A stretch of 64,000 nucleotides of DNA. It comes from Boletus sp. NGJ (Eukaryota; Basidiomycota; Agaricomycetes; Boletales; Boletaceae). Location: the NCBI GenBank assembly GCA_019096195.1, contig JAGTXK010000025.1:1-64000 (forward strand), written 5' to 3'. How positions within the stretch are numbered: position 1 is the first letter of the stretch; each line of letters starts with the position of its first letter. The position numbers and the translations under genes were made by a program. A model generated the notes under the pieces. That model was not told the DNA's origin and ran no database searches. It saw nothing but the letters and a program-made list of their open reading frames with translations. Below are positions 7,681 through 39,410 of this stretch, piece after piece.

Positions 7681-7755
7681 GACCTTACCAACTACAAGGA
7701 GAACAAGGGAGATCGGAGTTCTTGAGATGGAACTTCAAGACTACGAGGAGGGTAA

Positions 7756-8774
7756 TGTTACGGTTACTGAAGGGGGTACATCTTTTCCCCTTCCTTCACC
7801 TCCCGTAGGACTATGGGACGACCTATTCTTCAACTCGGACCAGGGATTCTCCAGGGATTCCCCCGCAACCCCAACACAGGCATTGCCCCATCCGGAGCCT
7901 CCCTTTCTAGGCAGTTATTCGTAACTCCCTCTTCGGGAACCTACCTCGTTTGGTATGGACACCGCCTCCCTTATTTCACCTGATGGATGCTTTCCTCCTT
8001 CTTGATCCGATCATAGACATTGCCTCCTCGGCTGTGCTCTCTCATGCATAGCCTAGTATTCCTACCTTCCCATTTTGACTCATGCCTTGATCCGTTTATA
8101 GTAATCTTTTGTCTGCGACTAACAATTACTATATTCGTTACGAAGCCTGCCCTAGACGGGTAAGGCCTATAAATAGGGACACAGGCCCTTCATGTAACTC
8201 TAACCTAGATCTACACTCCTTTCTGTGTAATCTACCTGCTTCTCCCACTAAAGGTTCCACTTCACCTCAGAAGCCTTCCCCATGCTCTGGAGGTGATTGC
8301 CCTCGTGCTTGTGATCATCGTTCTTATCACTTCGCACTTGTATGCCGTCATTGTCGTTACAGACTTCTAAAGCTTCGGCAACTCCAATGACCAACAGAGG
8401 TTGGTTGTTGTTGGTCAGGACTCTGCCACTGACCCAGCAAGCCTGGGACTCTGCCACCGGCAACTCGTAAAGCCTGGGACTCCGCCACCGGCAATAGGCC
8501 ATATAAGCCCAGAGAACTAGCTGACGGAAGGCAACTGTTTCTGGCCTTTGCATCCGGTCTGCCCATTCTTCATGAAGGATCACACCACCATGGTAAATCC
8601 AAGACTCTGCCATTGGTTGTAGAGGTAATGAGAGGACTCTACGTAAAGCTAGCAGTTGGTCCCCAGTCAGAGGAAACCTTGGGCCTCTGGAGGTATATTT
8701 CCCTCAAGTCCTGCTAGTTCTATAATCCAACAGGGATTATATGGGAACGTGTCACATTGTTACCCGGTGTAACA
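7756..8774 (+). repeat. Putative 3' LTR of Gypsy-1
   Basis: A purine-rich tract (about 7741-7755) is followed by TGTTACGG. The proposed end at 8774 reads GTAACA, giving TGTTAC/GTAACA inverted ends and TG...CA borders. A TATA-like CCTATAAATAGG at about 8166 fits an LTR promoter. Inside, near 8410-8500, a roughly 31-bp motif (GGACTCTGCCAC type) is repeated nearly three times. The matching 5' LTR lies outside the window, so the borders are inferred. Confidence 0.5.
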
Positions 8775-9220
8775 GGCTGTCAATGACATGATGTCTCGCA
8801 AGAAGTTCATCCATGTTCAACCTGCTGTAATACAGTCAGCATGATGTCAATGTCAAATAAGGGTCAGAAAGGGGAATGTACATGACACGTATATGTATGA
8901 ATCAAGTTCGCTGACTTGACTACTAATAAATACATGCACACTGGGCAACCTCATTATGATGGTGAGCAATTCCAAACTGCATGACTACAAAGCAGAAAGT
9001 CTATCAGACCAGGAGTAGAGCCAACCAAATGAAAATTTTATACATCGCCTTCTTCATTGCTCACCAATAGAATAATGCCCAGTACATGCACAAGTCAATG
9101 TGATTCATAATTCGCTCACAAATAGTACACTGATTGAACTATACAACAGTTGGGCCACTAGTAGTGATACAGCACATCTTCAGTGACTTCACCACAGACC
9201 TCTGAGCAGAATGGTCTCTC
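8775..9220. other. Intergenic, no gene seen
   Basis: CpG-poor, AT-leaning sequence between the Gypsy-1 LTR and the DUF6698-like gene. Only short ORFs are present on either strand and no recognised motif was found. Confidence 0.5.
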
Positions 9221-16850: not shown

Positions 16851-19050
16851 TCGACGCCAAATCCATCACTTGCCACACTGACGGCATGATCATTTGCACC
16901 TCCCCGAACATGTCCTTCATTCCTGAGCCTCCCAATGGGGACGAGGAATTGTGTGCTCAAGTGGATGGGCACTTTGGAACCATTGACTGTTTCCAGTGGC
17001 CTCAACTATTTTGCAAGGAATATGAATATGCCATCTGCATACATTGAAGCGAACATCACCCTTCTCCTGACCCCCTCTTCTGGGCATGGTATCGCCCTTC
17101 CCTTGAAGATTTTGAGCCACTCCCCCATGCTACCTCCCTTGTTGGCCAACTGAAGCAGGACAAAGCAGCAGGTGTCACCTCGTTGTGCCAAATTGCTGCC
17201 GCACGCTATAACAAATGGAAGAAAACACACAGAGACAAGAAGGACATCGCCAGTTGGCTTCTGAAGGCTCTGGGCCACAATCTTATGGTCCTTCTTAACC
17301 ACCCTCTGACCTTCCACGACGACGTCGTATTTGTTGCTCAAGCACAACAATATTTCTTGGGCATCATGGGATTCCTCGACTATGTTAAATATGTCCTTCC
17401 TCACGTTGCTTATCCTCCCTCTGCCCCTCACTCCATCCACACTGATTGGATGGGTTGTTTTACCCCCGACACCAAAGTATGCGATGAGCTGTTCCATGCG
17501 GGTGTGCCAGTATGGCTGGTCTGCTGCAACTTCACCATCACTCCCCAGACCATCATTAAAAAACCAGTGAGGTTTACATTCTCTGATGACATCATTTGCA
17601 GCATGTACTCTGAAGGTGGCAAACCTGCCTGTCCTTTTGATCCACTTTACCATGGGCCTGGTGGATTCCTTTGTCATCTCCATACCTGCCGGCACTACAA
17701 AGCTACAGTCGAACAACCACCAGTGTCCTTGTCCCTCAAGCCTGGATGCAAGCTTCCAGTCATGTGGGCAAAATGCCTACTCAAGCGCAAACAAGGCAAG
17801 CTGTGCAAAAGGAACGCACTCGTCCCAAGCCAAGCGAGTGGTCTTTAATACATTAACTGTCAGTTGGGGACTAATGTACCATGGAGGTGGTAGTGCTGGA
17901 GGTCGGGACAAATGGGAAGAGGTACGCATGCCTGAGATGCCAGCACCTCTCTCCATTTGGGAGAATGCCATGAAGTGTGTTGACAAAGACCTGTTGAGGC
18001 TGAAGAAGGACATAGTGAACTGGGGTTATCGCATTTCAGAACTGGCCATCCTCATCTTAGGCCAGACCCCCAAGTGCCGCCAGCTTTTCATGACAAACTG
18101 GCTGGCAATTCACCCACTCTGGATCAGTCGGCTTGACCATGACCCCCCCACACAATTTCCTGCCTCCCAACTGTGGAGGGAGATTCTCCACAAAGCGCCA
18201 TCCAAGGAAGAGCTTGAGGCTGCACCCAAAAGCAGCATGGGCATTGCGCTGATCATGGTACAAGGTTCTTCCTTTGCCCCCACCAAAACTGTGGAATGGT
18301 GTGGCAAGGAAATTTCACTCACCTTGCTGACCAATCCCCCACCCCGCCTCATTAGAGCGATCTTGTGGGAGATCTACGAGATTGGCTGGCACTACAAGCT
18401 GTGCACCCTTGACCAAGCCCTCAATCCTCGGTTGTGGGTGGAACATTGTATGGAGCGGGTCAGCTTCATGCATGCCATCTTTCCTGGAGTTCGGGTCTGG
18501 TGCTGTGGTCTGAGCCTTTGCCATCGAAGGCAGGCAATCTCAGGTTGACAGACTCGTTTGCTGACAATGTTCGTGTCCTCCGCAGTCTCTGTGTACTTCT
18601 CTCCACCTGGCCAGGGTGCCCATCCATCATTTTCGTACATTCCTTCTTTTGATGGACAATTCAAGCAAGCACAGGTCTATGAGACCATGTCTCAGGCTTG
18701 CGAATTCTATGTACAGACATTCTTTGATCATTTTGGCTGTCCCCCTCTCCTTCCCCATCATTTTCCCTTTGAGTACCATGAATAGCATCATGTAGTATGA
18801 CTTCCTCATACCGCTGTCTCCCCTTCCAAGTATGAATTAAATAATGTTTTTCACATGACTTATCCATGCTATATCATCACTGCCTCTCTTCTGGTTTCTC
18901 AGACTTCTATGACCCACACCAATTGCATCCACAGCACTTTCTAATGCTGTGGATGAAGTCGAAGATCCAACATCCATAGACTTGGCTACTAGCCGAGATG
19001 ACACACTAAAATGTCTGAAAAACCTCATGGAGGAACATATGCGTTACTGA
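16640..19050 (+). CDS. Repetitive Agaricomycete protein family of unknown function (DWMGCFT / GVPVWLV motifs)
   Basis: Multi-exon gene on the plus strand. Recognisable coding blocks are HHTLQDLFVRLPYQHP (about 16650), WAWYRPSLEDFEPL (about 17080), a long exon 17100-17850 with IMGFLDYVKYVLP, HTDWMGCFTPDTKV and GVPVWLVCCNFTI, a second long exon 17830-18548 with KWEEVRMPEMP, CRQLFMTNWLAIHPLWISRL and LIRAILWEIYEIGWHYKL, a short exon near 18560-18785, and a last exon ending EEHMRY at 19050. I recall the WMGCF/GVPVWLV pattern from many paralogous Agaricomycete hypothetical proteins often near transposons; no function is known to me. Frame changes between blocks could be introns or old indels, so integrity is not settled. 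Confidence 0.5.
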
Positions 19051-22000
19051 TTTGTGTTATGGCTTGCTATGTGAAGTATGCTGTATCTGTGTTTTTGATA
19101 CTGCTATACTAGCTTCCATTCCTCTAAGAATGCCAAAGAATGCCTTCAAACGAAAGATTAACCCCACAAGAGTCACTCATGCTAAATGGGTGACAAAAAA
19201 TACCACAAGGGGGCCCAAGATGACTCTGGTCAGATCAGATGCCACCAAGAATGCTGCTTCAACAACTCCATCACAATCAGCCCAGTCCACCTCAAGCAAG
19301 GCTGGGCCATCTGGCTCTCAGTTCACCTTCGGTACCACCTTGTATGTTCTATGGCACATTTAAATGCATTGTTCTGATGATATCTGGTCAAGGCAAGATG
19401 CAGCTGATTCAGAATTAGATGAGATATGCCCAATCTGACTTCCCCCAAAAAATGTGCCCATCCCTGATTTTGATAAACACACTGATCAATATGGTTTTAT
19501 AGACCTCAAATGATTATCTCTGGAAATTGGTCACTCACAAGAAAGAGTTTCTGCAAGCTTTGTTGGACATGGAAGCACCATCTCAATCCTGAGAATATGG
19601 TATATGCCATCGAGATGGCGTCTATCAGTGTTCTGACTGTTTTGGTCAGCCCCTGTTTTGCACCGGGTGCTGTTGAGATCGGCATCAGAGGCATCCTTTT
19701 CACCACATCCAGCAATGGACTGGTGCATTCTTTGAAGATTCATCTCTTATCTTGGTGCGCTGTGTGAATCATTTCCTAGTTTAACAAAGTTTGAACCATA
19801 TTGCTGCAGACCGGCTTTGAGCTCTATCTCAGACATGATGGGGGCCCTTGTCCCACCGGCGGCAATGAACATCAAAATGCTTCCAAAGTGCCGGTACATC
19901 TAGATGATGAGGGATGGGAAGACATTAATCAAGAAGACCTTCTGCCACACCTTTGTCCCCCAGGCAGATCAGATTATCTGACCATGGTTGACGTGACTGG
20001 TATCCATTTCATGACTGTCAACTATTGCACATGCTCTGGATCTGACGTAGAATATCTTCAACTGTTGCACTGCAAGCTTTACCCGGCAACATTACAAATG
20101 CCGAGGACCACGTTTACCTTTACCTTGCTAGATGACTTTATCTGAGATAATTTGGAGTGTGGAACATCCGGAATGAACTATTATAGCAAGCTCTGAAGGA
20201 TAACCTCCAATGTCTTTCCGCATGTTGTGCTAGTATGTGTCTGAACCAGTCTGTGCCAAATAATCCAATCAGACAGGTCCAGAACTGTTACCAAGAGTTA
20301 CTTCGGGTTGCAAGACAGTGGAGGCTTCTGAAGCTGCTGAAGTGAAATGGCTTTGGCCACCATTCCTGGGAGCCAACAAAAGGGGATCTTGCCCTTTTTT
20401 GCCCTGCCTGTCTGCAACCTGGGATCAATGTGCATGTGTTGGTAAATGAACTTTCTGAGTTAGTGATGATTTTAGTTAACCAGTGCACTGGTTGACAACA
20501 TGCCAACAGCTGGAAGTATTCCCATACTGTTATCATGGATGGTAATTTTAAGGCCGAGCATATGTGGAAGAGGCAGCCTGATGACCAAATCTGGCTCATG
20601 GATGGCCTTGGCTATATGGTGACTTGGCTGGAGTATCATGAGTATCTGAAGGAAACACACCACCCCCTGGAGGTAATAGTACCATTTGGAAATGCCACTT
20701 ATCTTATGACTGATCGAAGACCAGCAGTCAAGTTGCAACAATCACTGAGCTGTGAACCAAGCGAATGCCAGCTGAGGCAAGTTGGATGCAACCAGGATCA
20801 GAGGTTCTGCATGTGTACAGCATGGATGCTTTGTGCCACACTCAGTAGTTAACTTGGAGAGGTAACTGATATCCATGGAATGCTATGCCTGTCACTCAAA
20901 TCCCCACAGGCAGGTGAATATGGACTACTCATTCGTCCATGCCCTCACCCACAACATGGATAATGTGTCAAGAATCATAAGTTTCTATGACATCAACTGC
21001 TCCTACATGAAGAAGCTCCAAGCTCATCTAAGCAAGAACAAGTTCATCTGGCTGCCATCAAATGTGGACATAGTGCCAGGCATTGGGATGTGGCATGTGC
21101 ATGGACATCAATACTCATGTTTTGCTCGGTATGCCCCCTTGTTCATTCCTGGGGCAGGATGGGTTGATGGTGAGATCATTGAGACATTATGGTCTAATCT
21201 AAACATTGTGTCTGGGTCTACATGAGGAATGTCCTCTCTCCATTGGCAAGAGCTTCTCGACTTCCAAATGAATGATTTCAATTTTAACAAAATGATTCGA
21301 ATGTGTAAGTTCTCACATTGTGTATTTATTGATGGAACCTCCATACTAATTGATATCAGCTGGAAGTTTGGCAAGGAAGCTAAAGGGCGCTTAGAAATTC
21401 CCAGTGTCGGCCTGGGAGACATTTTATGACCTCAATGCTGGGGTTCCTGACATTCAAAGGGAACAGTGGCTGAGCCAGGAGAAAAAGGCCATGGAGAGAC
21501 GACTCCGTGATCCATCAGCAATGGATATATTTGAGGTACAGTTAGACAAAGGTATGTCAGAAAATGAGGGGCGCCCCCAGGGGTCTGTTACTTATGCCTC
21601 CACAAGTATAGCACCCACCATACAGGCCATAGAGATAGAAATGCTTGCGGCCGTCACTCAGACGCCTGGCAAGCACCATAGAGTGGCAACATGGCTGTCT
21701 AAGGGACTGAAACTCAAGAAGGCTCAAATATCACTCCAAAGAGATATGAAATGGAGGGGATTGAGGGCCACTGAGCTCCAACTGTTGGCCCTTGCTCGCC
21801 GAGCCGATCAGCTAGCTGCCAAAATTTCGCATTTTTGTGCCAAAGCAGCCACATTCCTTTGCTATAAGAATGGGGACAGTAACGTTGGAGAGGAAGATGC
21901 AGTTGATGACCTGGGAGCTAAACAACCCAATGAGGCAAAGCTGCCATTGCCATCTAACTTGGGTCATGAGAGGTGCATGGCCCTGGGTGCTCAACACCTT

Positions 22001-22109
22001 ATTCAACAGGAGCTCGAGCTTCATGCTGGCCAAGCAAATGATGCCTTACATAAGATCTGGCTCGTGTTGGCAGACAAGGCGGTATTGTTTCGCACTGATG
22101 TTCGGCATA

Positions 22110-22117
22110 CTGGCAAT
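22110..22117. repeat. 8-bp target-site duplication of hAT copy 2, left
   Basis: CTGGCAAT immediately left of the element, identical to 25921-25928. Confidence 0.95.
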
Positions 22118-25100
22118 TAGTGTTTGAAGGTCCAGTCCCAGGACCAGTCAAGGACCAGGGACTGGACTGGACCACAGTCCCAGTCCTTGCTCATTTCAAA
22201 AAATTGCAGTCCCAGTCCTATGATTTCTCATCAGACTTGAGGACCAATACAGACTGGTCTGGACCAGTCCTCATATGACATACACAACATAGCATAGTCT
22301 AAGTATCAACCAACTCAATGTCCTTATCATGACCCCCTGCCTCCTTGTCCAGATCATGTAGCTCCTTGAAATCTTGCAATATAACCTCTTCGACATCGCA
22401 TGTGTTGGCATGTGCACGATTGAAGATAGAATGGTGCCAGGAATGCTTGAGTATTTGTAGTTCTTCGAATCTCTCTAATCCCAGGCAGGAACGACGGTCA
22501 GTCGCGATCTCTGCACCTGCCAAAAACAATTGTTTGCATGGTACTGAAGATGCAGGAATGGCAGAGATATCCTTGGCAACATGTGCAAGAGTTGGGTATG
22601 TCACTGTGTGGTTCTTATTGTTGACATTAGTATGTGATAGCAAAGGGACCAAGAAACTCACCACCCACCACTCGACCACGTCTGTCTCCTTTGTGACATT
22701 GTCAACAATTGTGAGATATTGGCATAGCTTGGCAGCCCATCCAATCAATTGATTATTCTCTTGCTGGGCCTTTTCAACCAACTCACATCGGTGACGATCA
22801 AATTCGGACTTTAGTGTAGCGTTGGGTTTGGGCTGCGATGACACTGAAGTGGGCTTGGACAGTGTCTTAGCCTGTGTTTCTTCCCAATACTCTCAAAGGG
22901 TATTCTCGACGATTTGCAGCGCTTCGTCATACCAGTTTTTGGCATGCACGTTTCCCTTTGCACATTCTTCTTCTTGCTCATTTACTCCTCCCCATGCCAT
23001 TTCAATGTAATGTAATTTGTAGTAAGGGTGTAGGACTAATGATCGTTAGTGAACATTAGAATACACGTAGAATAAACGTACCAAGGGCTAAGATATACAC
23101 TGGCTTCTCATCAAGCTTCACATAGTATTTTCCAATCTTCACGAGACCACTATTGATGGCGGCACGATACCGTTCGTACTTTGCGTCAGCTCTCTTCGAC
23201 TCCCATACACTCTGTAGCTCCTCAAGCGCAGGGATCGCACGCCAAAGAGTCGTGTGTTGCTTGGACAAAAAGTATTGCTGAATCTTGTTTGCTTCAGAAA
23301 TGATTGCATGTGTGTCATTGATAATCTCCCAGTTGCAAGCTCTGAGTAAGAAGGCGGTCCACGGGATGCGCTTCTCCACATGGCCGTTCCGCCGAATTGT
23401 CGTGATTGGGCCAAATAGTTTGTCTGCGGACTTGATGAACAGGTTGATGGGTTGGCGAAGGCTGTATGACCGCACCAACATGATGTCGGCTGTGCCCCAA
23501 TGCACATTGCTATGGAGGGGGATCTTGAGTGGCGGGATGATGCCATATTTGGCTTGAAGTGACTTGAAGTACTTGAGCCGTTGAGTCGAACATTGTATCT
23601 GTACAATAAGGACGTTCGAAGTTAGCAAAAGCAGGAAAAATAAGGATAAGAACGTACCTTAACAGCCAATGTGCAGACTGCAGCAATGGCATCCAGAGAG
23701 TCTTCGAGAATGCGGTTACCAGTGAGATCAGAATTGAACTCCCAGATACTAGCTGTAGTCTCCACGCTTGAAATTCTTGTTATAGTAGACATGACAGCGA
23801 CGATAGATAGATTAACGACGTGGGCGAGACATGGTAGACGGTGGTATGTGGGGTCAAATGAAAATATGTTGTGTTGGTGGAGGACTTGCTCGATTTTGTC
23901 ACACATGGCATCATTGTTACTAGCATTGTCGGCGGTGATACAAAGTAGCTAGGGTGAGATGGTTCAGTTGAAACGATATAATATCAAAAGGGCTCGTACA
24001 CACACCTTGCTTGACCCCTTCGAAACGATTCCAACTCGCTCATAAAGACCTACAAAGTAGCAGCCAATGTTGTCACCAGTGTGCACTCCAACAATCCCAC
24101 GGAACGCAATGACTTCGGAGCGTAGAGTCCATTTCGATGATTCTGAGTTCGACCCAATCATACCATTGATCCAGTGTGCTGTAATGCCGAGGAAAGCAGC
24201 CTTTGTCTGATCGACTGACCAAAGGTCCATCGTGGTTGAGATACGACCGGCAACATTTAACTTACACAAAAGCCAGTCAATGAGAGAGAAAAAGATGATT
24301 GGGTTGACTTACCGCTAGCTCGTCTTTGAGCTGCTTGAGAAAGGCTGCGAACACATTGTAAATGAACATCTTGACATTGTGTCCTGATGGCAAGTCAGCG
24401 TTGGTAGACTTTGGTCGCATCGCCACAAGGCTATTCCTGAACAATGCCTTATCAACAACTGCAAGCGACTATCCGCCTCATGGTTAGCTCATGTTCTGAG
24501 CCACATCGTCTTTCACCCACCTGGTCATCACAAACGACAAACTCTGCAACAGCCTTCAACACCTCTATCCATGAGAAGGTTCGCTGTACCCTCTTCATCA
24601 ACATTCCAGAAATACTTTGCTGGCCACTCTTTCCCTTCGCTTTCTGGGCTTCCAAAACTTTCGGCAGTATAGCAAGGTGATTTTCAAGGATATCTTTTTC
24701 TGTGCAACGTTTCTTATACAATTCGTAGTGGATTTGGATGTGTTGTCGACATGTGGAATTACTGCCAGTGAAGAAAACTTTATGTCTACTGTGTTTTTGT
24801 ACAAGTTTCTCATCATTCCTTTCAATGATCGTCAGTGAGTTCACAACATGCACATATTAGTTTGTGTGTACTCACTTGCATATGGTACACCAGCGACCCG
24901 TCAGGGTTTCCGTCTCGGTTTCCATCTCATCATTTGCGCACACAAATGTGACTTTGATAGTGTCAGAGAAGATAGTAAGTAAGTCCTTCGTGCTGTCTTT
25001 CTTGACTACATGTATGACCACCTCAGAGGCGCGATGTCTTTCTTTGAGGTCACCCTTTTCTATATTAGATGTGCTAACTGATGTTACAGTGGGCAATTAC

Positions 25101-25920
25101 ATACCTCACTGTCAACCATCTCAAACTCGTGCCCAGGTGGGCTACTAGCCCTGTCCATGACCATCTCCGGCTCCGTGGTCAAGTCTATCTGCTCCTCGAC
25201 TGACGATACACTCTTGTGTTTGTGTCTTTTCTCCTTTCTTCATTGTTTCCTCGAGTGAGCTAAATGAGCATTGGGGTGCTTGTCTGATTGCTCAGCCTCG
25301 AGGGAGCTCTCACTTCCATTGTCTGTTGATTCCATCTCGCTTGTGCTTGACATGTATTTTCTTTTCTTGAATTTTGCATTGTGGGGAAGCACTGCTTTTG
25401 ACTTGGGCGGTCGAGAGCGCATACTGTTTTTTCTTGGCTGACCAGTGTTTTCTTGGACCTTTGCAGTGAGAACTCTCTGTCAGGTTGATTTCCGTGTTTC
25501 TGACATTGCCAAACGATGGCAGATGTGTGGCAGGAAGAAAATGACACAAGACTTATGGGTATGATGGCGCATGGATGTTGGGCTACTTTTGGTGGATATG
25601 GTAGACAGTAGTTTTACAATACAGGCATTGAGCTATGGTGGATAGACTTATATACTCCATTCCATGCATGATACACATTGTAAGCTGTGGTTTGGGGCAT
25701 GCTGCATTAATATTGTTGCTGTTTCGCAGGAATAAATCATCTACTTGAGGGCAGTTTTTCATTTGGGGACCAGTCCTTTCTCTAGCTAGGACCGCACAGG
25801 ACTGGTCCTTATCAGTCCTGGTCCGGTCCCAACACATTGTGGTCACCAAAAGGACCAGTCCTGGTCCAGTCCTTCTAAAAATGGACACAGGACTGGACTG
25901 GACTGGACCTTAGAACACTA
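22118..25920 (-). mobile_element. hAT DNA transposon, copy 2 (complete, inverted relative to copy 1)
   Basis: A 3803-bp element. The ends read TAGTGTTTGAAGGTCCAG on the left and, on the other strand, TAGTGTTCTAAGGTCCAG on the right, a typical hAT TAGTG-type terminal inverted repeat with subterminal GGTCCAGTCC repeats. It is flanked by a perfect 8-bp duplication CTGGCAAT. The insertion point is inside the KDZ transposase coding sequence, which continues in frame on both sides once one copy of the duplication is discounted. The near-identity to copy 1 (about 18 kb away, opposite orientation) implies recent activity of this family. Confidence 0.97.
22299..25422 (-). pseudogene. hAT transposase of copy 2
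   Basis: Same gene as at 491-3614, on the minus strand and identical in all long frames: ATG at 25422, BED finger near 24710-24900, TMDLWS near 24232, DNASNND near 23910-23930, and dimerisation domain near 22430-22595 ending at 22299. The two in-frame TGA codons of copy 1 recur here (22893-22895 and 25240-25242). This copy thus shares its defect with copy 1 instead of having acquired it independently. Confidence 0.85.
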
Positions 25921-25928
25921 CTGGCAAT
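25921..25928. repeat. 8-bp target-site duplication of hAT copy 2, right
   Basis: CTGGCAAT immediately right of the element. It is also where KDZ coding sequence resumes. Confidence 0.95.
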
Positions 25929-26520
25929 CATGCAAAGACCACCCAAGTGTGGGGGAAGGTCAATGCCGTGGACGCGGTTGTCAATCAGCATGTTGCCATA
26001 TATTGGAGATGCAGATCTGCCATGCTGCATCTTTTGGCAGATGATGGCATGATGGCTAGATATCAGTTATTGAAGGATGAAGATCTTAAAGTCAGCACTG
26101 CAGTTACCAAGCCTAACTCCCGCAACCATTGTCAAAACAAGTTAGCCTGGTTCTGGTCAATGGATATATCGGGAGACACCAAGATGAACAATTGAATGTC
26201 TGAATGTAAGTTCCACATTTGGGTGAAAAACTCCTACCAAAATTATGGCATCCACAGTTTACCAAGTCCATTGGTTGTGTGCAAAAGCCACAATGTATTG
26301 GTGGAAAGAGGAGGAAGAGCTACTGATAGCCAAGTTCAAATGGACCATCAATTACTTCGACCACAAATTTCATCAGTGGGAAGGGTGGGCAGCACACAAT
26401 CGGCAAAAGGATGACTGAGGACAAATCTGCTATGCTTCCCACCAGCAGGCCATCTATGCTCGGCTTCGGGAGCAGTGTTGGGCAGATTGGGAGAACTGCT
26501 GAGCCTCACAACACACGGAG

Positions 26521-27470
26521 ATGTTTGATAGTAGCTCCATTTCATAAGCTGATGTTATGTCATGACAAATGTACACAGCCTGTCCAAAAGTGTCAGCCAT
26601 TATTTGGCCTATTCCAGGCACTGTGTGGGCTGCAGAATACATATAACCACACACCCTCCACATGCTGAGATTCATCCTAAACCCCCTCCCTCTTCACTCC
26701 TGCCATGGAGACATTTCCTGACAACACATCCGTCTCTTCACTCCACATGATGCTATGGTATCAGAAGTGCCAGATCAAAGTGGCTGTGGCCCATCTTTCC
26801 TGACTTCCAGTGGAGAAATGGCCTGCAACATGGTATGATAACCTGTCCATGGAGTCGGTATGCCTTCCTCATTAAACATGACTGATGGGCATTCTGACCA
26901 TAATAAATTGCAGAACATCTTGAGCTTATTCTTAGCACTGTATGCGCCTGTGCAGACAGTACCCCTGCTGACCCCATCATGCGCCCGAATCATCAAAGTT
27001 GGCACCAGCCCCAAGGATCTGCAATTGGACATCATTCGTGGCATTGAGGGTATCAACCTCAATGGCATCATGTGAACCATAGAGCTCCTGCTGAACTGGC
27101 AGCCCGCCATGCATATGCCCACCTTCAGATTTGAACATCCATGGTGGGTGGACGACATGCTGACCTATCACGAGCAAGCATCGCAGTTTCTCATTTTGGA
27201 ATCATTTGAGAGGGCGGAGAACTTCTTTGAGGTATGTAAATAAATGGCATCAACATCCTCAGCTCATAGATCACAAGGATTATTGGCCAGCCAATGATTC
27301 TCCTTTGGACAAGGCCCACAATGCTTGGCTAGACTCTCTGGAGGCCAGCATTGTGGCCGAGCTTCAGCAAAATCTGACCAAGCTTGTGTGGACTGAGGCT
27401 GCCATGATGGAGTCTTGGGTCGATATGGTTCAGTTCCGGAAGTTGTGTCAGAAGGGTTGATGACTTGTGC
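26521..27470 (+). pseudogene. Coding-like remnants between KDZ and TET/JBP-like genes
   Basis: Plus-strand open stretches read ILSLFLALYAPVQTVPLL...TSPKDLQLDIIRGIEG (about 26916-27060), then LLLNWQPAMHMPTFRFEHPW and LILESFERAENFFE (about 27090-27230), then an intron-like GTATGTAAA border and HNAWLDSLEASIVAEL...ESWVDMVQFRKLCQKG ending at 27460. The composition is coding-like but I recognise no family. They may be a third gene of the KDZ element or the decayed end of another. Confidence 0.3.
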
Positions 27471-27548
27471 TTGCCCAGTGATAGCAAGATGCATAGTACT
27501 TTTTACATATTTACAGTTTATAGTACATGTTTTACCTACTATTACTTT

Positions 27549-28560
27549 TTATTGTCGTTCCCAAATTGAATGATGCATAAAATTACGTCGGGGAACATCC
27601 ATGTATTCATGGACATTGTCCTGCATATAGTAAGTGAGCACTGCCCACTCCCCCTCTACCTGACTGACTCCATGCTCTAGCATTTGCCCCAAGAGCACGA
27701 TCACTGTTCCTGGTTCATACTGAAGCCAATGCATGATGGTCAGGATCACGAAATCTAGCCCAGTGTAGCTGCCAATCAAAATGAGGAGGTCCAACCACTG
27801 AGGCCTACTGTTTGTGTCAGTGTGAAATGGACTCGCTCAGTTTGCCATGATGGACATGACGCTATAGATAGATGACCACAATTGAAAAACCTCCCCCAAA
27901 TCAGGGTTCTCCTGCATGGCAGCCCAGTCACTGAGCCTAACCATCGCCTTCCAACCCTTCTCATACATTTCAGGATGTAGGATAGCAACCGATGCTGCTA
28001 AGAGGGCTGAATGTTCTTGCATGGAGAGCAACCACTGCCAGGTATCCTGTTCACCCCGGGTACCCTTTAGCAGTGCTGAGACCTCAGGTGATCCACTCAC
28101 CCTCTATTGGCCAAGGTCTGATCAGTGAAGGAGGGCAAATCAAAAAATATCAATGTTTCTACCCTGCTGAAACCAAGCAGGAGATAGGTTGATTGCCCCC
28201 CACAGCTCGGCCCTGGGGTGAAAGTTTGCCAGGGAGGTTCGCCATGCCTGAGGAGAGCTCCCTGTCAAGCTGTAGGACAGTGGCCTAGATAAAAGTGGTA
28301 GCTGTTCCCAAATATATTGCTGGTTTGATCCATAAGTGAAAAGCAAGGGTCACTTTCTGACTCACAGACTCACTTGATTAGGCTCGCTCATTGCACCAGG
28401 TAAATACCAAAGTAAGACATAGCCCAAACAATCAGTTATGATGGCGGGCTCAGTGAGCTGTCCATAACCCCTGAACATCAGCATCCAACAGCTGCATTAC
28501 ATTCCCCCTCCATTTCATCCGTTCACCAAGCCTAATGATGTCAATATTGTCGATTGTCAC
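27549..28560 (-). pseudogene. TET/JBP-like 2-oxoglutarate/Fe(II) dioxygenase, decayed
   Basis: TET/JBP enzymes oxidise 5-methylpyrimidines in DNA, using Fe(II) held by HxD...H and 2-oxoglutarate bound by an Arg; in Agaricomycetes they are expanded and linked to KDZ transposons (Iyer and colleagues 2014). Here the minus strand reads, from the N-terminal side, GYVLLWYLPGAMSEPNQ (about 28430-28380), ELWGAINLSPAWFQQGR, then a long frame (28100-27837) AVRLSDW-like to SIYSVMSIMAN. It then continues SPFHTDTNSRPQWLDLL with the HxD pair HTD at about 27820, YEPGTVIVLLGQMLEHGV with the distal His, and VEGEWAVLTYYMQDNVHE, ending at 27549. A TGA lies just before ASPFHTD, where the family usually has NR. 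The residue after GE is Trp where I expect the 2-oxoglutarate Arg. It is probably inactive. Confidence 0.7.
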
Positions 28561-28984
28561 TGGAAGGGCATTAGTGGAAAATTATCAAATCAGGGTAGGC
28601 ATACCCTTGTTTTGGTATGGCCCTTGCAATTATGCTGTTCATCCTGTCTGCCTCACAAACTGTCTGCATTGGAATTTGCGGGTGGGGTACACTTTTCTGC
28701 GTAGTGTCATTGGTGGTCTGCAAGGCTTCCCAAAATCTGGACACCATATAAGTGGCCAATTGATCAGTGTAGGATATGGCCCACTCGTCGGGGGATTTCA
28801 GGGGAGTTCATGAGATAGACAAAAGAAGATGCGAGAAAGTCGGTGAATTCATAATTCCCTGTAGATATAGGTTTCCATGTTTCCATGGAAATGCATGTTT
28901 CACATCTCACCAGATTTCGGCCGACAGGAATAGCCTGACCCGACTTCATCCAGGCCAGAGACATATACATCACACTTAGGATCA

Positions 28985-30275
28985 CATACCCTGCTCAGCC
29001 CCTTTGTATGCAAGGTGCATCACAAAGGCTAGTGACATTCACCCTGTCTGGCCCCATCCCATGCATCCCCACATAGCCACAGCCGCCCAGCACGGTCCCC
29101 TTGTGTACATCAAGGCAAGTGTTGCCTACCCTCTCCAGTGCCCTCCCATGCTTGGGCATTTGGTATCCACCACCCAGTCTGGTCTCCATGTATGCATCAG
29201 CATTCAATCACACTCACCCTGTTCGGTCCCCATTGTATACTTCAGCAGTCAGTCCCACCCTCCCTGCTCAGTCCCTTGAATACATTGAAGGAAGCGATAC
29301 CAACCCTGCTCAGTGTACTCGTATGCATTGGCAGTTGGTTATACTCACCCTGCATGGTCCCTCTGTATACATTGAGCAAGGGTTTCCCACCCTGCTCGGT
29401 GTACCCGTATGCATTGGCAGTCAGTCATACTCACCCTGCTTGATCCCTCCATATATATCAAGGTAAGGGATATCCACCCTGCTCAGTCCCCCGTATACAT
29501 CAAGGCAAGGGTTACCCACCCTGCACAGTGTGCTTGTATGCATTGGCAGTCAGTCCCACTCACCCTGCATGGTCCCTCCATATGCATCAAGCAAGGGATA
29601 CCCACCCCGCACAGTGTGCTCATACGCATTGGCAGTCGGTCCCACTCACCCTGCATGGTCCCTCCATATACATCGAGGTAAGGGATACCCACCCTGCTTG
29701 GTGTACCCATATGCATCGGCAGTCGGTCATACTCACCCTGCACGGTCCCCCCATATGCATCGAGGTAAGGGATACCCACCCTGCTCGGTGTACCCATATG
29801 CCTCGGCAGTCGATCCCACTCACACTTCCCAGTCCCCCTGTATACATTGAGTGAGACCATACCTACCCTGTCCAGTGCCCTCGTATGCATCAGCAGTAGG
29901 TCATGCCCACCCTGTCCAGTCCCCATGTTTATATTGAGGTACATAATACCCACCCTTCTCAGTGTACTTGTATGCATTGGCAGTTACTCACATTCACACT
30001 GCTCACCCCCTTTGTATCCACTGAGGTGAGTGATTTCTACCCTGTGCAGGGCCCTCGTATGCCACAGCATTCCATCACATCCACCCTATCCAGTCCCCTC
30101 ATATGAATCGAGATATCTGATGCCTACCCTGCACAGTCCCTTTGTATGAATCGGCACTCAGTAATGCCCACCCCATTCAATACCACTTGTATCCCTCGAT
30201 GTTGGCTACACTCACCCCACTTGAGGCCCTGTCATTTATATCAACACTTCATTTACTTACCCTTTCCAGGCTCTT
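28985..30275. repeat. Minisatellite, unit about 87 bp built from two related halves of about 43 bp
   Basis: The anchor CAT[TC]GGCAGT recurs at 29412, 29541, 29627, 29714, 29800 (CCTCGGC), 29888 and 29975, and degenerate forms near 30062 and 30149, with steps of 86-88 bp (one of 129, that is three half-units). Each half ends in CACCCTGC...GGTCCC-like sequence, one carrying TATGCATTGGCAGTCAGTC and the other CAAGGTAAGGGATACCCAC. Units diverge toward both edges. Long ORFs on both strands here are by-products of the repeat. Confidence 0.9.
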
Positions 30276-31373
30276 CTGTATCCTACGTATGTCCATCCAC
30301 ACTGGGCCTGACCGTAGCTCACGGGCCTCATATATCTCAGGCCCACCACAGGATCAGCCGTACATGTCAGGCATTTTGCAAGCAGGCTTACCATATGCTA
30401 CAGGTGAATGTCACCACATGGGCTCCAATGCAACTGTGAGCTGATTCCAAAGCGAGCCTGTAATGTGAACATTAATCTAGCACGACATTGGCAGTGTCTA
30501 TGAAACTTACCAGAACTGCGGCATAAGCAATGTGTGCTGCCTCCACCTTATCCATACAATGAAGGACCACATTGCACGAACGTACCCCACATGAGTCCTC
30601 ACCATGGGCCATAGATGGACCTGTAAAAATATGCCTAGCAACCTGATAGGGTAGGAACTAGTATGTAGCTGTAACAACCATGAAAAACAATGAGACATAC
30701 CCATTCAAGATAAAATCCACAGAAAAGGCCCAAGTGAATGTCTTCATTGTTGTACTTAGCTCCATTGTCCTCCCACAGGAAAGTGGGCAGTTCAGTAGCT
30801 GACATGTTGATTTTGCCATTCTTGAGTTTCTTCTGAGTTCTATTTCATTCAATTTCAGTTAGCACTGCCTAATCATTATGACCAAATGAATATATACTCC
30901 TCTGCATTCTCATTGAACACCATCACATACTCAACTGGGCAGAGATATCCGGCCAGCTATGGGTGATTAAGTCCAAGCTCTGATTTGGAGGTGCTAGAGT
31001 TGATGGGAGGCTTCATATTGTCGACTTTCGGGTTTTGAAGGATATATGTTGTTAGTTTCTCGCGCAGTCAGGCAGAGTCACTGCTCCTTGTCTCATTGAT
31101 AGCTTCATTAATCTAAAAATGCTTCAGCCTGTCCTCAACACCACAATATATGCACATATACATACCTTTTTGAGGATTTTCTTGAGTGTTGATGCACGTG
31201 CAGCATTGTCGATGAGCGTCTTGATGCTTGGAATCTCGTAGATGAGAATATAGTAGACCTTCTTGTAACGAGCTAATATTTGTGGCATACTGGTACCTGG
31301 TTTGTGTGATGAGCATGGAAAATAAATTTAAACACTTAGATCTGCTCAAGAGCTTGCTTCCTAGCATGGTGCA

Positions 31374-31520: not shown

Positions 31521-33130
31521 CGGTGGCTCAAAAAACTGTCCGCATGTTTGGTCATTTTTCACTAAACGCGTTATTCCCCAATAACCCCTAACCCTTACCC
31601 TAACATATAGGTGTATGAAATGAAGCACTGACCCTTGGCTTTCTATCCACCAAGGTTTTAAGACATATGAATAAGAATTGATGAACTGGCAGCCATGTCA
31701 AAACAATGACTCATTCAGACAGTTTTTTGACTCTAAATTTATCTAGGTATCTAGTACTTGGTATGAGCTCCTTTGGCCTTGATAACTGCTTCAATCCTTC
31801 TAGGCATACTTTCTATCCATTTCTGACACTGTTCCTCATCAATCTTTCCCCACTGCTCCACTACTCTTTCCCGCAATTGATGAACACCTGTAGAAGCATT
31901 TTCATAACCTGAGAGGCATCTCTTGAGGTGATTCCAAGTATGTTCAATGGGATTAAGGTCTGGAGATTGTGCAGGCCAGTCCAGAAGCTTGATTCCTTGC
32001 TCTTCAAACCATCTTTGGGCTCTTTTAGAGGTATGCTTGGGATCATTATCTTGTTGAAAGATAATGTCATCTTCTGGAATTCCAGATTCCTCCATGCTTT
32101 GCAGCAACCCCTGCTCCAATATGGCCACATACTGTTCAGCATCCATTCTCCCCTCCACCTCACTCAAAATCCCCACTCCATTCCACCCTATGCAGCCCCA
32201 TACCATCAGTGAACCTCCTCCAAACTTGACTGTGCCTTGGACCTCTCTAGCAATTAGCCCCTCTCCTTTCTTTTTCCACACATACTCTTGCCCATCTGAC
32301 CCAATCCTATTGATCTTGGTCTCATCTGACCATATAACTCTCTTCCAGTCCTCCACAGTCCAATGCTGGTACTTGAGAGCAAAGGCTAATCTTCTTTTCT
32401 TGTGACCACTAGAAAGCAGTGGCTTTTTCTTCTTTACCACAGCCTTTAAGGAGGCTTCCTTGAGAGTATTTCTAACAGTCTGAGGACAGACAGGGGTATC
32501 AATAATGGCATTGATGTATTGGGCAGCATGAACAGCATTCCTGGCCTTGCCAGTAATAATTTGCTGAACAATAGCTCTTTTGTTGGTAGAGGTAAGCTTG
32601 GAAGGACAGCCACCAAGAAGCCTAGTCTTCTCTGGCTGGAGTTCCTGAAGCACTTGGCATACTGTAGACTTCCCTAGGCCAGTTTGGGCAGAGATTTTCC
32701 TAGAGGAAAGCCCATGAGAGGAGAGAGAGATGATATTGTTTCTTTGAGAGATGGAAATGGGTTTCATGGCAATGGTGGGAAAATAAACATGGAATGATGG
32801 GGTTTATATATGTTGTCTGACACTCAGTTACATAATGGTGACATAATAGAAGCCTTACCAAATGTATGTAATCATATTACAGCATGCTAGGGTCCAATAT
32901 ATGTAATCAAAACTTAGAGTCAAAAAACTGTCCGAATGAGTCATTGTTTTGAAATGGCTGCCAGTTCATCAATTCTTATTCATATGTCTTACAAGCCTTG
33001 ATGGATAGAAAGCCAAGGGTCAGTGCTTTATTTCATACGCCTATATGTTAGGGTAAGGGTTAGGAGTTATTGGGGAATAATGCGTTTAGTGAAAAATGAC
33101 CAAACATGCGGACAGTTTTTTGAGCCACTG
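31521..33130 (-). mobile_element. Tc1/mariner DNA transposon, apparently intact, nested in the Gypsy-2 LTR
   Basis: A 1610-bp element flanked by TA (31519-31520 and 33131-33132). The empty site is visible in the other LTR (GAAGCTAATAGGTTATT near 39056), which proves the insertion and its borders. The terminal inverted repeats are long, about 217 bp (31521-31738 and 32914-33130), starting CGGTGGCTC on the left and CAGTGGCTC on the right. Each terminal repeat is itself bordered by a short inverted pair, outer TCAAAAAACTGTCCGCATG and inner, facing the other way, TCAAAAAACTGTC[CT]GAATG. It carries one uninterrupted transposase ORF. Confidence 0.96.
31751..32767 (-). CDS. Tc1-family transposase (DD34E), intact 338-codon ORF
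   Basis: Cut-and-paste transposase acting at the TIRs of its own element. The N-terminus has paired helix-turn-helix DNA-binding regions (RNNIISLSSHGLSSRKISAQTG, split over about residues 9-30, and STNKRAIVQQIITGK near residue 60). The catalytic triad is visible: D in WSDETKINRIG (about residue 150), D in FQQDNDPKHTS (about residue 243) and E in LNPIEHTWNHLK. Exactly 34 residues lie between the second Asp and the Glu, so it is DD34E as in Tc1. GGGSLMVWGCI is also typical. There are no introns, stops or frameshifts, and 338 residues is a normal length. This suggests recent, possibly autonomous activity. Confidence 0.95.
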   Translation of the reverse strand: MKPISISQRNNIISLSSHGLSSRKISAQTGLGKSTVCQVLQELQPEKTRLLGGCPSKLTSTNKRAIVQQIITGKARNAVHAAQYINAIIDTPVCPQTVRNTLKEASLKAVVKKKKPLLSSGHKKRRLAFALKYQHWTVEDWKRVIWSDETKINRIGSDGQEYVWKKKGEGLIAREVQGTVKFGGGSLMVWGCIGWNGVGILSEVEGRMDAEQYVAILEQGLLQSMEESGIPEDDIIFQQDNDPKHTSKRAQRWFEEQGIKLLDWPAQSPDLNPIEHTWNHLKRCLSGYENASTGVHQLRERVVEQWGKIDEEQCQKWIESMPRRIEAVIKAKGAHTKY

Positions 33131-36100
33131 TAGGTTATTGAAGGAAGAGACAAATGGATTAGACTGGGGATACCAGTCATCAAAGTGCTAGTTTATATAC
33201 ATGAAGAGAATGTGCACGGACCATGCTGTGCGTGTGATAAATTACTACGTATGGTAAGACGGAGATTAATAGGGCTGTGTGAGAAGAGCGGAAATTAAAG
33301 AGGCGTGGATCACATGAGGTATGATGTCATATGACGTCATAGGTTCTAGACCTATCATGTGAGGTGTTCCCATGGTCACGTGCACAGTCACGTGACTTAT
33401 GAAGAAAAGAGTTGAAGAAAATGAAGAGTAAGTAAACGTTTGAAAAGTTTGAAAATTTCCTATATTATTACACTACCCCCTCTTTAAGACTCGAATTCCA
33501 GGCGAGTCGTTGTGTTTTCATTTTCCGTGAAGTTTTCATAAGGAGTGAATAAAGAAGTGAAGGCTGAGATGGATAAACCACGAAGCTTGCATGGAGCGGA
33601 AGGGTTAAGATGATGGAAATCTTTGACTGCATCCGGTGCAGTGATGTGAATTTCTTCAGATTCCCAGGTACGATCGGTTTCATCGTAACCCTTCCAATGA
33701 ACCAAATATTCTAGTTTGCCTTTCTTCATCCTGGAAGCGGCAATAAAATCAACTTCGAACTGCTCTTCTCCCTCTTCATCAATTTCTATAGCGTCTGGTC
33801 TAGATTTCGGTTGTCCAGGCAACGTTTCTCTATATGGTTTGACGCGAGAAATGTTCACAGTTGGATGAATGTGAACAGAGTTTGGGAGTTTGAGTGTTAC
33901 GGCGTTAGGAAGGACCCGAGTGATGACGTAGGGGCCAATCCATTTTTGTGTAAGTTTCTTTGCCGTATAAGGAAGTTTTAATTCATCAGTCGAAAGCCAG
34001 ACTTGCTGACCAATAGAATATTCTGGTGCTGTTGATCGTTTTTTGTCTGAAGAGACGATCATCCTTTCACGTGTAGCTTCCAGCGCTTCTTCAATATCCT
34101 TATGGTTATCGCCCAATTTCGTCTGCAAAACCCGTGAGATGCCCTTCGAAACCCATACGCGGTACGTAGTTTCTTGTTACTTTAAAGGGAATTTCTCCGG
34201 TAGCCGTAGTGACGGTGTTATTGTGAGAGAATTGGGCTAACTTCAGCCATTTGACCCAGTCGTTTTGTTTCTTTCCAGCATATGTGCGGAGATACTGTTC
34301 TAGATCTCGGTTAATGCGCTCGGTTTGTCCGTCCGTTTGTGGATGATATGCTGTAGAGATTTTCTGTTTTATTCCAAGGAGCTTACAAAGCTCTTGGGTA
34401 AATGCGGAAACGAACTGTGGTCCTCAGTCTGAGACGAGGGTAGAGGGAAGTCCATGTGTTGACCATACGTGGTCTCTGAATAAAATAGCAAGGTCCTTTG
34501 ATGAACACAGTATCGTACATAGGTATGAAAATAACTTCTTTAGAAAATCTGTCCACAACAACGCAAATAGCAGTGAAGGATTGTGATGGAGGTAGACCGG
34601 TGATAAAATCTACCGATAAATCTTCCCATGGTCTTTTTGCCGCGGGTAGAGGAATAACTTTTCCTGCCAGTGCATTTTGCTTACCCTTCGTGAGGGCGCA
34701 CACTTGGCAGTGATCTACGTAAGTTTTTACATCCTTTGTGACTCCTGGCCACGAGAAATATCGAGAAAGAGTGTGTATAGTTTTGGAATGACCGCCGTGT
34801 CCTGCGATGGGCAAGTCATGGCATAAAGTAATGATTTCGGTACGTAATGGTTCTGGAACATATATTTGGTCTTTTTCATTTTTGAATAGATTAAGTTCAG
34901 AATAGAAAAGAAAGTTGTTTATGGCGTCTACGTCATATTTTTTGGATTCTTTTTGTATTTTTGTCATAAGGTCCGAAGAGAGAGAAACGTGATTTATAAA
35001 GATAGAAGGGGGAAGCACGGTGACGTTTTGGTTGTGATCTACAACTGCGTCGCCGTGATCTGGTCGTCGGGATAAAGCATCAGCTCTTCCATTAGACGAT
35101 CCAGGTTTGTATACGAAGGAATAATTAAATTCTTGGAGAAGCATGTGCCAACGTGCTTGACGTCCGCTAAGTGTTTGAGGCTTCTTCCAATATTCTAAAT
35201 TTTTATGGTCGGTCCAGATTTCAAACCTTTCACGACCAATTAAATAGTGACGCCATTCTTCAAGGGCACGTATTACTGCAAGCAGTTCCTTGTCATAGAT
35301 TGGGTAGTTGCGCTCCGCGCTGTCAAAAGAATGAGAGATAAAGGCGACAGGTCACCAATTTCCGTCATTACACAAGGTAGAGAGCACTGCTCCCGTGGCG
35401 ATGTCTGAGGCATCGGTTTCCACGCGCATTTCTTGATCGCGGTTTGGGTACACGAGAAGTGGCGCTTCCGTAAATTTTCTTTTTAGATTTGCGAATGCTT
35501 CTTGTTGATCTGGACCCCATTTGAATGGAACGTCTTTCTTGGTAAGATCGTTCAGAGGTCGAGCGATTTGCGCGAAGCCTTCTATGAATCGTCTATAATA
35601 ATTACAGAGTCCGAGGAAGCCTTGAAGTTGCTTTAATCGTGTAGGAATCGGCCAATCCATGACCCCAGCTACTTTCTTCGATTGCATTTCTACCCCCTCT
35701 TTAGATACCACCATTCCTAAAAAGTCCACTTTTTCTGCCGAGAAGGTACACTTTTCTGGTTTTACGTAAAGGTCGTTCTCGCGTAAGCGGCGTAGAACTT
35801 CCTTCACAACTTCTTCGTGTTGTTCTTTTGTCTTTTTTGATGTAAATATCATCACGTCGTCGATGTAGATGATGACTACAGCATACATGTCGTTAAATAT
35901 ATCGTTCATCATAGTTTGGAATGTGGGGGGAGAGTTCGTGAGACCGAAATACATAACGGTAGGCTTCGTATGCTCCGATAGGGGTGACGAATGCTGCTTT
36001 CCACTCGTCGCCTTCTTTGATGCGGACATTGTTATATCCCCATCGGAGGTCCATGGCCGTAAATAGATCCGCATTCTTGAGTCGATCAATTAATTGCGGG

Positions 36101-38923
36101 ATAAGAGGGAGCGGATAGGAATTCTTGATGGTTCCTTCATTTAAATATCGGTAGTCCATGACCATTCGTTTTTTGCCGTCTTTTTTGGGAATGAAGAAGA
36201 TGGGGGATGTCTGTGGAGATTTGGAGGGTTTGACGTAACCCTTTTTGACTTCCTTTTCGATGAACGTTCTGACTTCTTCCATCTCGATGTCCGAAAGGGG
36301 AATAACACGTCCTTTCTTGGGGATGAAGTCTTCTTTGAGATCGATTGCGTGATCCCAGTGTTTTCGTAAAGGCATCCTTTGAGATTCTTTCTCCGAAAAG
36401 ACATCTAAAAATTCGTGATAAGTTAAAGGAACTTTCTCTTTAAGTCCTTCTTCTATAGTACATAGTTGAACTGGTTCGTAAGAAGAAGTGGGTCCTAAGC
36501 CCATAATTTTACAGTAAGAGGTACAGTGGGGAAACGTAATTGTTTGTTTTACCCAATCGATGTCAGGGTTATGACGATATAGCCAGTCATACCCGATGAT
36601 CATACGATGAGTTCCTAATTTAGATATGTAAGCGTCTATTACTTCGTAGTGTCCTTCGATTTCCACCATCAGTGTTACCGCGTGACAGATCGGTCCGATA
36701 GCTCCTTCTGAACCGTCAGTGTTATGTATCTTAATGGGGTTGTCGATAGTATAAAAAGGTATTCCGTGACGTTTTACATAGTCCTGATCTATGAAAGTAT
36801 GCGACGCTCCCGAATCCAGGAAGGACTGGAAACGGTAACGCGACCACTGGCCGTTAACGTTGCACGATACTATGGTTTCAAGGGAGAATTCTCCACCATA
36901 GGAATGCATGGATGCTTGATTTAACGTGACCTTTGTGGGTTTATAGATATTCGATATTTTTTATTGTTTTACGAGGGAATTAAGTACACTTAATTCTGGT
37001 GCCGCGCTCAATTGAGACGCCCTTGCAGATTTCATTGATAGATTACGTAGTACAGCAGAAAGATCAGAGATAGGAAAATCGGTACTTGTACATGTTGTAA
37101 AAGAAGATGAAAAAGAAGAATGTTCGTGCCGCTGAGTTCCCTCTTCACTCATTGGCGCTGTCCATTTAAAGCCTGTGCAGCTCTGGCTTTTGCTTCGACT
37201 TCGAATTTATCTCTATAATACGCTTTGGCCTCATCCAAAACGTATGCCCTTGCTGCTACACTTGGTGCCGTTGTAGCTACAGGAGGTTGCGGGAGTGGTC
37301 GTTGTGCGTATGCACGAGATTGTGGTTCATTAAAAAACGAGGGATACTCATGTTCTCCCTGTGTTTGCTCGACGTACGAGCCTTGGTTCCAATCCCATAA
37401 TTGTCTCTGCATTGGTGGACGACCAGTCCGTTTGAAAGGGTTCGTGGGACAGTTGGGTTTGATATGTCCAGGCTTGCCGCAATGGAAACAGGTCCTTGTT
37501 TCTTTAGAAGGTCCAGCCTGCTGGACTCCTATTTCCATGGGTGCGCCGCGACCCGGTTGCGTGCCTACTGCCGTGTACTGGGGGCGATATGAATTGTGTG
37601 GGGGTTGCCCACGGGGAGGAGGAAATGATGAACGAGGAGGTTGGGATCGGATAGGGGGTCCACGTTCGTTCGCCATTTGTTTGAACGCCCTTCCAATTAC
37701 TCTATAATTGATTACCAAATCCTCGTAATCGAAGTTTCGAGCTGGAGAGTTTAATCACGACCTTTCGTAGATTTCGAAGTCTACTGCCTTCTTCAGTAGA
37801 ACTTCCACGTGATGGTCGTCGATGTACGACTCTTTTCTCAGGATCTCGAATTTTTGGAGGAACAGGTCAATGGGGTGACCGTTTTGTTTTAGAGTTTCGA
37901 GTTTCCTCAAAGACTCGTGTGCTAACGTATCTATGCAGAAATGTGTCTTTATCTGCTCTTGTAACCTGTTCCAGGTGGGCCATGCATCGGCTCCTTTTGC
38001 CGGCAACATAACCCCGTTTGTGTCCGTTTCGATGGTTCCTTCCTCATCGAGATAATGTTCCATGATAAGTTGTGCGAAAGCTTCCGCTTTTCCTTCGAGA
38101 TGGGAGAGGACTGTGATGTCCATAATCTTGTTATTTTTCCATCTCTGGGCATCAACCCAGAGACGGAGCTTAATCCACCAAGGGCAGAATGTAGTCCTTG
38201 TGCCGTCCCATTTCCCAGGATCAGCGATTTTCTTAGTAATGTTTTCTTTATCGCGTTCCTGAGTAAGGTCGGCGAGCTTTTGGACGAGATCGTCAATGTC
38301 AATGTGCGCCATATTTGGGGTTTGGCTTTAAGAAGGATTTTGGGCGAAGATAAGATCGGAAGTAGGTGATCCGGTAGAGTGCGAATGCTGAGGAGGGGCG
38401 AAGAGGCCTAACTTTGTCGGAGTTTCTGATGTATGTTTTCCTTTTCCTGCGTCGGTCTTCTTTCAGAACCTTACTACCAGATATCTTACAATCCGGTTCT
38501 GAGGTTCCTACACCTTCGTAGGAGTCGAAGTATAAGTCGTTAAAAATGATGGGCAACGGTGATGGGGGACCGGAGGATGACTGCTTTACTACGAGCAGGT
38601 GTAACACGGGAGAAAGGCGAGATAAATCTCCGTATCGTTACTTCGTGACGTCACAGGTAATCACGAGAACCTGGGTTCACTATCGTAGAACCAGCATACG
38701 CTCAAGTTGGCAACCACCTGAGAAGTGGGGCTAGTGCACTATGCCCGGCAGCAACATTATCCTTATTTAGTATGCCGGACGAGCGTATATGCAAGAGTTT
38801 CGGCGAGTTCTTTTCTCGTCACCGTCAAGTGGTGAATACTGCAGATGTCCCTTAAAACACTGGGCCCGCGTATATCTCCTTAGCTCTGGAGTCCAAGCGT
38901 TGTGTATAGCAGTCTAATCCAAG

Positions 38924-39405: not shown

Positions 39406-39410
39406 CATCT
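39406..39410. repeat. 5-bp target-site duplication of Gypsy-2, right
   Basis: CATCT, identical to 31374-31378. Confidence 0.9.

Follow-up and report, generated by a model that had tools for sequence, protein, structure and literature searches.

The stretch of DNA analysed here (the window) comprises 64,000 nucleotides of Boletus sp. NGJ, positions 1-64000 of contig C42 in a genome of 32.8 Mb on 141 contigs. Within it lies a dead copy of a large KDZ DNA transposon that carries a TET/JBP-related gene. The remnant occupies 18942-30425 on the plus strand; its 5′ part is lost and its 3′ terminus (...CACATGGGCTC) is kept. Along it we find a KDZ transposase gene split by a nested hAT transposon, a short third gene on the same strand, the TET/JBP gene in convergent orientation, a subterminal minisatellite and one arm of a terminal inverted repeat (TIR).

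The 5′ part of the transposase gene (18942-22117, plus strand) has stops inside and is recognised by two Pfam domains and by a protein match within its own family. The KDZ domain (PF18758) lies at 20722-21282 and scores 103 bits against a cut-off of 26.6, with the KDZ core part extending over 20722-21315; the frame at 20866-21225 alone matches with an expectation value (E) of 5.7e-21. An earlier note, made from the sequence alone, had proposed a plus-strand KDZ transposase with a cysteine cluster, and the cluster proves to be a CxC2 domain (PF18803, E 5.4e-18) in the frame at 19795-20145. The span assigned to this gene in the note (19130-26520) does hold it, but also includes a separate transposon of 3803 bp that is inserted inside the KDZ gene at 22118-25920 on the minus strand. 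This insertion shows all three features of the hAT class, namely a dimerisation domain (Dimer_Tnp_hAT, E 8e-10), TIRs (TAGTGTT.../...AACACTA) and an exact 8-bp target duplication, CTGGCAAT. Its CpG observed/expected ratio is 0.61 versus 0.28 for the host element, and because it is less CpG-depleted, it is probably the younger of the two. After the hAT, the 3′ part of the transposase gene (25921-26547, plus strand), evident from its coding signal and translation, picks up the frame at 25921 and closes it with a stop codon at 26547.

On the minus strand, the core exon of the TET/JBP dioxygenase gene lies at 27558-28103. Read through its one in-frame TGA, it matches PF12851 (Tet_JBP) at 27654-28052 with 43.5 bits against a cut-off of 34.9 (E 3.4e-10). 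The frame at 27549-27836 alone falls under the Pfam cut-off (22 bits, E 1e-4) and matches the solved CcTet of Coprinopsis cinerea (PDB 8jkk, 7vpn), the closest solved relative of the core, at E 2.7e-9; in that alignment the HTD and EHGV motifs coincide. The HxD...H arrangement of an AG-type TET/JBP dioxygenase is thus present, as is the profile match whose absence the earlier note had named as decisive against its proposal of a TET/JBP-like gene. In the window copy, the HTD motif and the second histidine are kept, but the catalytic site is not intact: GER has become GEW and the TGA interrupts the frame, so that the protein differs from CcTet by a stop and by substituted C-terminal residues. 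Further TET exons, with approximate limits, occupy 28104-28800 on the minus strand (constrained frames at about 28180-28300, 28404-28520 and 28630-28800). The end of the element had been placed at 28560, whereas the TET coding signal continues to about 28800 and the element itself to 30425.

The extent of the element follows from a comparison of the window with 10 kb of sequence at each of 20 Pfam-level TET loci. There are 23 such loci in the genome; the remaining three are the window's own, one on contig C27 (1.5 kb read) and one on C44 (28 bp, at the contig end). Homology to the window spans 18942-30425, the hAT excluded. The match starts at 18942-18972 in 12 of the 20 fetched copies and ends at 30388-30425 in 12 of 20, which are partly different copies. 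Past the TET gene, the element runs through a subterminal minisatellite (29171-30098; units of about 42-45 and 87 bp by Tandem Repeats Finder) to the 3′ arm of its TIR (30200-30425). Other copies carry the inverted counterpart of the minisatellite near the opposite end, and these minisatellites are perhaps binding sites of the transposase. By identity, the copies fall into three groups: A (13 loci), B (the window, L022, L026, L029, L033 and L035) and C (L028 and L031). Since other copies continue further 5′, the window copy is truncated at that end; the extension beyond its cut is 4.3 kb in common between the group A copies on contigs C133 and C3 (E21/E24) and 8.5 kb in the copy on C56, where it reaches the element end.

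In the C56 copy both ends are present, at 237 and 15998, which makes it 15762 bases long; its terminal arms share 208 identical positions out of 230 aligned columns. A 226-base query from the 3′ end of the window copy has at least 40 matches in the genome, itself included, in both orientations. Nine end pairs were read, with ends about 13-28 kb apart; the TIRs are about 230 bp long and of two end types, CACAT.../...ATGTG and GAGCCC.../...GGGCTC. Exact 7-bp target duplications flank four of the nine (C101, C133 at 176.7-204.7 kb, C97 and C37, read by eye), and partial ones flank two more (6 of 7 bases at C68 and 5 of 7 at C56, by eye). The pairs on C133, C97, C68 and C56 hold KDZ, the third gene and TET between them, and two of these (C133 and C97) are among the four with exact duplications.

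Across the genome, KDZ and TET recur in the same arrangement. In our protein searches of the genome, TET gave 57 rows, of which we kept 34, and KDZ gave 49, of which we kept 28. What was dropped were extra pieces of a locus already counted and, among the KDZ rows, matches to other KDZ groups at no more than 41% identity, although one 40% row was kept. A convergent TET lies within 12 kb in 19 of the 28 KDZ-family rows, and the nearest spacing is 2.37-2.77 kb in 16 of these 19 (3.1, 4.2 and 6.2 kb in the other three). The 6.2 kb belongs to the window, where the usual spacing is widened by the inserted hAT. Two more TET rows lie near KDZ without being convergent (C17:17997 and the weak C11:27835), and at the Pfam level, 16 of 23 TET loci are paired with KDZ by eye. 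The two genes have also diverged together: distances between copies correlate strongly for KDZ and TET (Mantel r 0.986, p 1e-4, for the n=16 loci in which both blocks are present), and family A taken by itself shows the same (r 0.86, p 2e-4, n=9). The earlier note had treated the two genes as parts of one element, to be checked by genome-wide co-occurrence and by terminal repeats around both; matched divergence, recurrent convergent pairing and shared repeats enclosing both genes in relatives bear it out.

Between the KDZ stop and TET lies a third gene on the plus strand, consisting of 51 + 106 + ~61 codons (about 218 amino acids). Its exons are at 26705-26857 (opening with ATG and containing one internal TGA), 26914-27231 (also with one internal TGA) and 27278-27463 (including the stop). 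The coding remnants at 26521-27470, suggested earlier as a possible third component, do contain a distinct three-exon gene, although their first part is the end of KDZ. The exon-intron structure is common to the 18 of 21 copies that were aligned (L027, L033 and L035 were left out), and the introns, of 56 and 46 bp (54 and 54 bp in two group C copies), sit at the same positions in all 18, with GT-AG kept at intron 1 in 15 and at intron 2 in 17. Divergence is 0.41 and 0.51 in the introns and 0.20-0.32 in the exons. Between seven A and three B copies (L026, L024, L036 and L034 were omitted for frame shifts, and L019 and L023 were not included either), the ratio of nonsynonymous to synonymous differences (pN/pS) is 0.42, or 0.32 without CpG-type sites, compared with 0.80 and 1.06 (0.90 and 0.83) in the shifted frames. 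The third gene has been under purifying selection in the past. It also travels with TET: a genome search in which 30 of 80 rows were kept, the others being further exons or pieces of the same loci, gave 28 loci, 27 of which have TET within 3 kb, convergent in 26. Among 25 KDZ-family loci (the 28 rows minus three short or weak ones), 19 have both TET and the third gene and five have neither; in one the third gene is present without TET, and TET without the third gene occurs in none. Six of 33 TET rows (34 minus one second piece) lack the third gene, including one at a contig end and one just 30% identical to the TET query. The third gene matches nothing in Pfam, even with E allowed to reach 10, and nothing by sequence in the PDB; the predicted fold of exon 2 alone has a mean predicted local distance difference test (pLDDT) score of 46.

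Selection and decay are both recorded in TET. Between groups A and B, the core has a pN/pS of 0.31 (0.24 without CpG-type sites; 28 pairs) against 0.75 and 1.33 in shifted frames, and TET is therefore a gene kept by purifying selection during the divergence of the element families. Within A, the ratio is 0.49 (0.66 without CpG-type sites), as decaying copies should give. In 21 core exons (the 20 fetched loci and the window), the first histidine is kept in 20, the aspartate in 18 and the second histidine in 19; the arginine of GER, which by the CcTet alignment we take to be the 2-oxoglutarate-binding residue, is kept in five. Seven of the 21 core exons are stop-free, and none (0/21) combines the H, D, H and R residues with a frame free of stops.

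The elements are also stripped of CpG, with an observed/expected ratio of 0.28-0.30 in the element versus 0.98 at 44-64 kb of the window. CpG transitions (to TpG/CpA) make up 0.525, 0.497 and 0.554 of between-copy substitutions in groups A, B and C, respectively, and the C-to-T rate is 0.33-0.38 at CpG, 0.08-0.12 at CpA and 0.015-0.055 at CpC and CpT. A TCG bias like that of repeat-induced point mutation was sought and not seen (C-to-T of 0.29-0.36 at TCG and 0.39-0.43 at ACG). We read the CpG depletion as a trace of methylation in the past.

TET-carrying KDZ transposons are already published, and the element is a variant of them rather than a new system. The earlier note had looked for an unusual biological system here; the TET-carrying element is real, but this copy is truncated, interrupted and broken, and its kind was known. 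Iyer and colleagues reportedly linked TET/JBP expansions to KDZ transposons in PNAS in 2014. Judged by its features, namely the transposase, the relation of its TET to CcTet and the 7-bp duplications, the element behaves as a TET-carrying Kyakuja and most probably belongs to that group. In the text of Kojima 2025 (PMC12730594), as far as it covers them, the TET+ Kyakuja of Agaricomycetes likewise combine a KDZ transposase and an AG-type TET in one transposon, occur in several copies and leave 7-bp target duplications, as do the relatives of the window element; the same text describes CcTet as a 5-methylcytosine (5mC)-oxidising enzyme and, for C. cinerea, cites 46 AG-type TET genes associated with Kyakuja, of which 32 are likely active. 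Kyakuja-1_LB and -2_LB of L. bicolor are described there with 5′-CA..TG-3′ ends and no TIRs, whereas the elements here have TIRs of about 230 bp with one end type GAGCCC.../...GGGCTC, inverted subterminal minisatellites and the third gene. These differences are relative to the main-text description, and other Kyakuja families may share the features; that text names no third protein for Kyakuja (PMC12730594). KDZ1 of Cryptococcus is likewise a large KDZ element (about 11 kb) with long TIRs (241 bp) but has 8-bp duplications and a CxC1 cluster, and the available part of its description mentions no TET (PMC12810828).

From what is observed (which genes are present, their convergent arrangement, the ends common to the copies, the joint divergence of KDZ and TET, the past purifying selection on TET and on the third gene, and the decay of CpG), we favour, with a probability of about 85%, a Kyakuja-type KDZ transposon that carries a TET eraser against silencing together with a third gene. 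The transposase would move the element through its TIRs, leaving 7-bp target duplications, and the convergent TET gene would encode a 5mC dioxygenase. On this view, the host silences the element by methylating CpG sites, and the enzyme, by oxidising these marks, would make transposase expression possible, while the gene between the two may supply a small partner protein. Several observations weigh against this reading. The window copy itself is without a 5′ end; three of the nine end pairs (C3, C5 and C114) have no target duplication; and the five KDZ-family loci mentioned above lack both TET and the third gene. Of the end pairs with exact duplications, C101, one of these five loci, holds only KDZ and C37 (57.1-71.3 kb) holds KDZ and the third gene with no TET match, so that the element may move without TET or may have lost it after insertion. 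The selection signal in KDZ is a weak contrast, with a pN/pS of 0.48 (0.45 without CpG-type sites) versus 0.64 (0.58) in one shifted frame. We also asked whether TET protects the CpG content and saw no such effect: CpG observed/expected has a median of 0.29 (range 0.16-0.48) in 15 TET-carrying element cores and spans 0.12-0.55 at eight other KDZ loci without a nearby TET match (0.16-0.71 in the matched part alone). As the TET carriers kept no more CpG than these loci, any protection was not lasting. Finally, the activity of the TET protein, its target and its service in escape from silencing are things that we infer from sequence.

It is on this last point that another function can be considered, in which the TET is element-borne but serves chromatin marking by stable 5-hydroxymethylcytosine, 5-formylcytosine or 5-carboxylcytosine, or acts on N6-methyladenine (6mA), rather than erasing methylation. 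The CpG decay, which shows that the copies were long methylated or otherwise CpG-mutable, speaks for it, as do two findings reviewed by Kojima, oxidised 5mC in the surroundings of C. cinerea Kyakuja and an action of CcTet on 6mA (PMC12730594). We consider this account unlikely, though with some force, and retain that of an eraser against silencing.

For the third gene, one can picture a module of transposase, small third protein and TET, with the third protein working specifically as the partner of TET. It could, for instance, guide the eraser to the ends of its own element, where the subterminal repeats lie; we hold such a module to be rather doubtful. No paper on a third gene of this kind was found in the openly accessible literature. 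That the gene is just the 3′ part of the KDZ transposase gene is improbable: it does lie on the same strand immediately downstream of the KDZ frame, and the 150-bp gap between them diverges (0.297) no more than the exons, but the KDZ frame closes with a stop in both L021 and the window, the gap has no clearly constrained frame, and the coding signal after it opens at an ATG common to the aligned copies and has two introns of its own. Very improbable is a host TET family adjoining KDZ transposons by repeated insertion, since, although a convergent KDZ core match is missing at 13 of the 34 TET rows, order and spacing recur, KDZ and TET co-diverge, TET sits between paired terminal repeats, and of the seven Pfam-level TET loci without a nearby KDZ core, all six inspected keep KDZ 3′-end and third-gene-region DNA (inverted at C27) and the seventh, C44, is at a contig end.

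Several further features were observed in the element family and the window. Upstream of KDZ, copies of groups A and B carry another conserved minus-strand gene (E21 at about 7440-8880; L037 at 5440-6000 continuing into L021 at 1-880), with lowest pN/pS values of 0.3-0.6 in successive frames of E21. Three pieces of it were compared with Pfam and gave no match, and the window copy lacks the gene. Directly upstream of the element's cut, 17006-18548 of the window holds long open frames on both strands, for which a Pfam search gave no match. Two element copies on C133, L021 (about 2401-7600) and L023, lie inverted to each other at about 42-48 kb and 58-63 kb. Over 5.2 kb their identity is 99.8-100% in every 400-bp block; to one side it falls to 94-96%, to the other it falls to 88% and then to 70%, and the 3′ flanks differ. 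Gene conversion or a collapse in the assembly would account for this. At 31751-32803 on the minus strand lies an intact Tc1/mariner transposase frame of 350 amino acids (DDE_3, E 3.9e-18) with 1 CpG versus 53 expected. Of the 41 genome matches listed, the frame itself among them, 40 are 98-100% identical; 40 of 378 first-look candidates were scored. Could this young, abundant and nearly CpG-free element avoid methylation instead of erasing it? A retroelement at 33484-39500, with SH3_Tf2-1 and a chromodomain at 33484-34176, has a CpG observed/expected of 1.05, which suggests that it is perhaps young or unmethylated.

Where transposons carry a candidate methylation eraser, the contest between mobile DNA and its silencing can be followed in the sequence. 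To this the present genome adds that TET was under purifying selection during the divergence of the element families, that a third gene co-travels with it, and that all the same the 21 TET copies inspected are broken and the elements CpG-stripped, so that carriage of the eraser did not save them. With no intact TET core exon left among these copies, host defence seems to have won in this genome.

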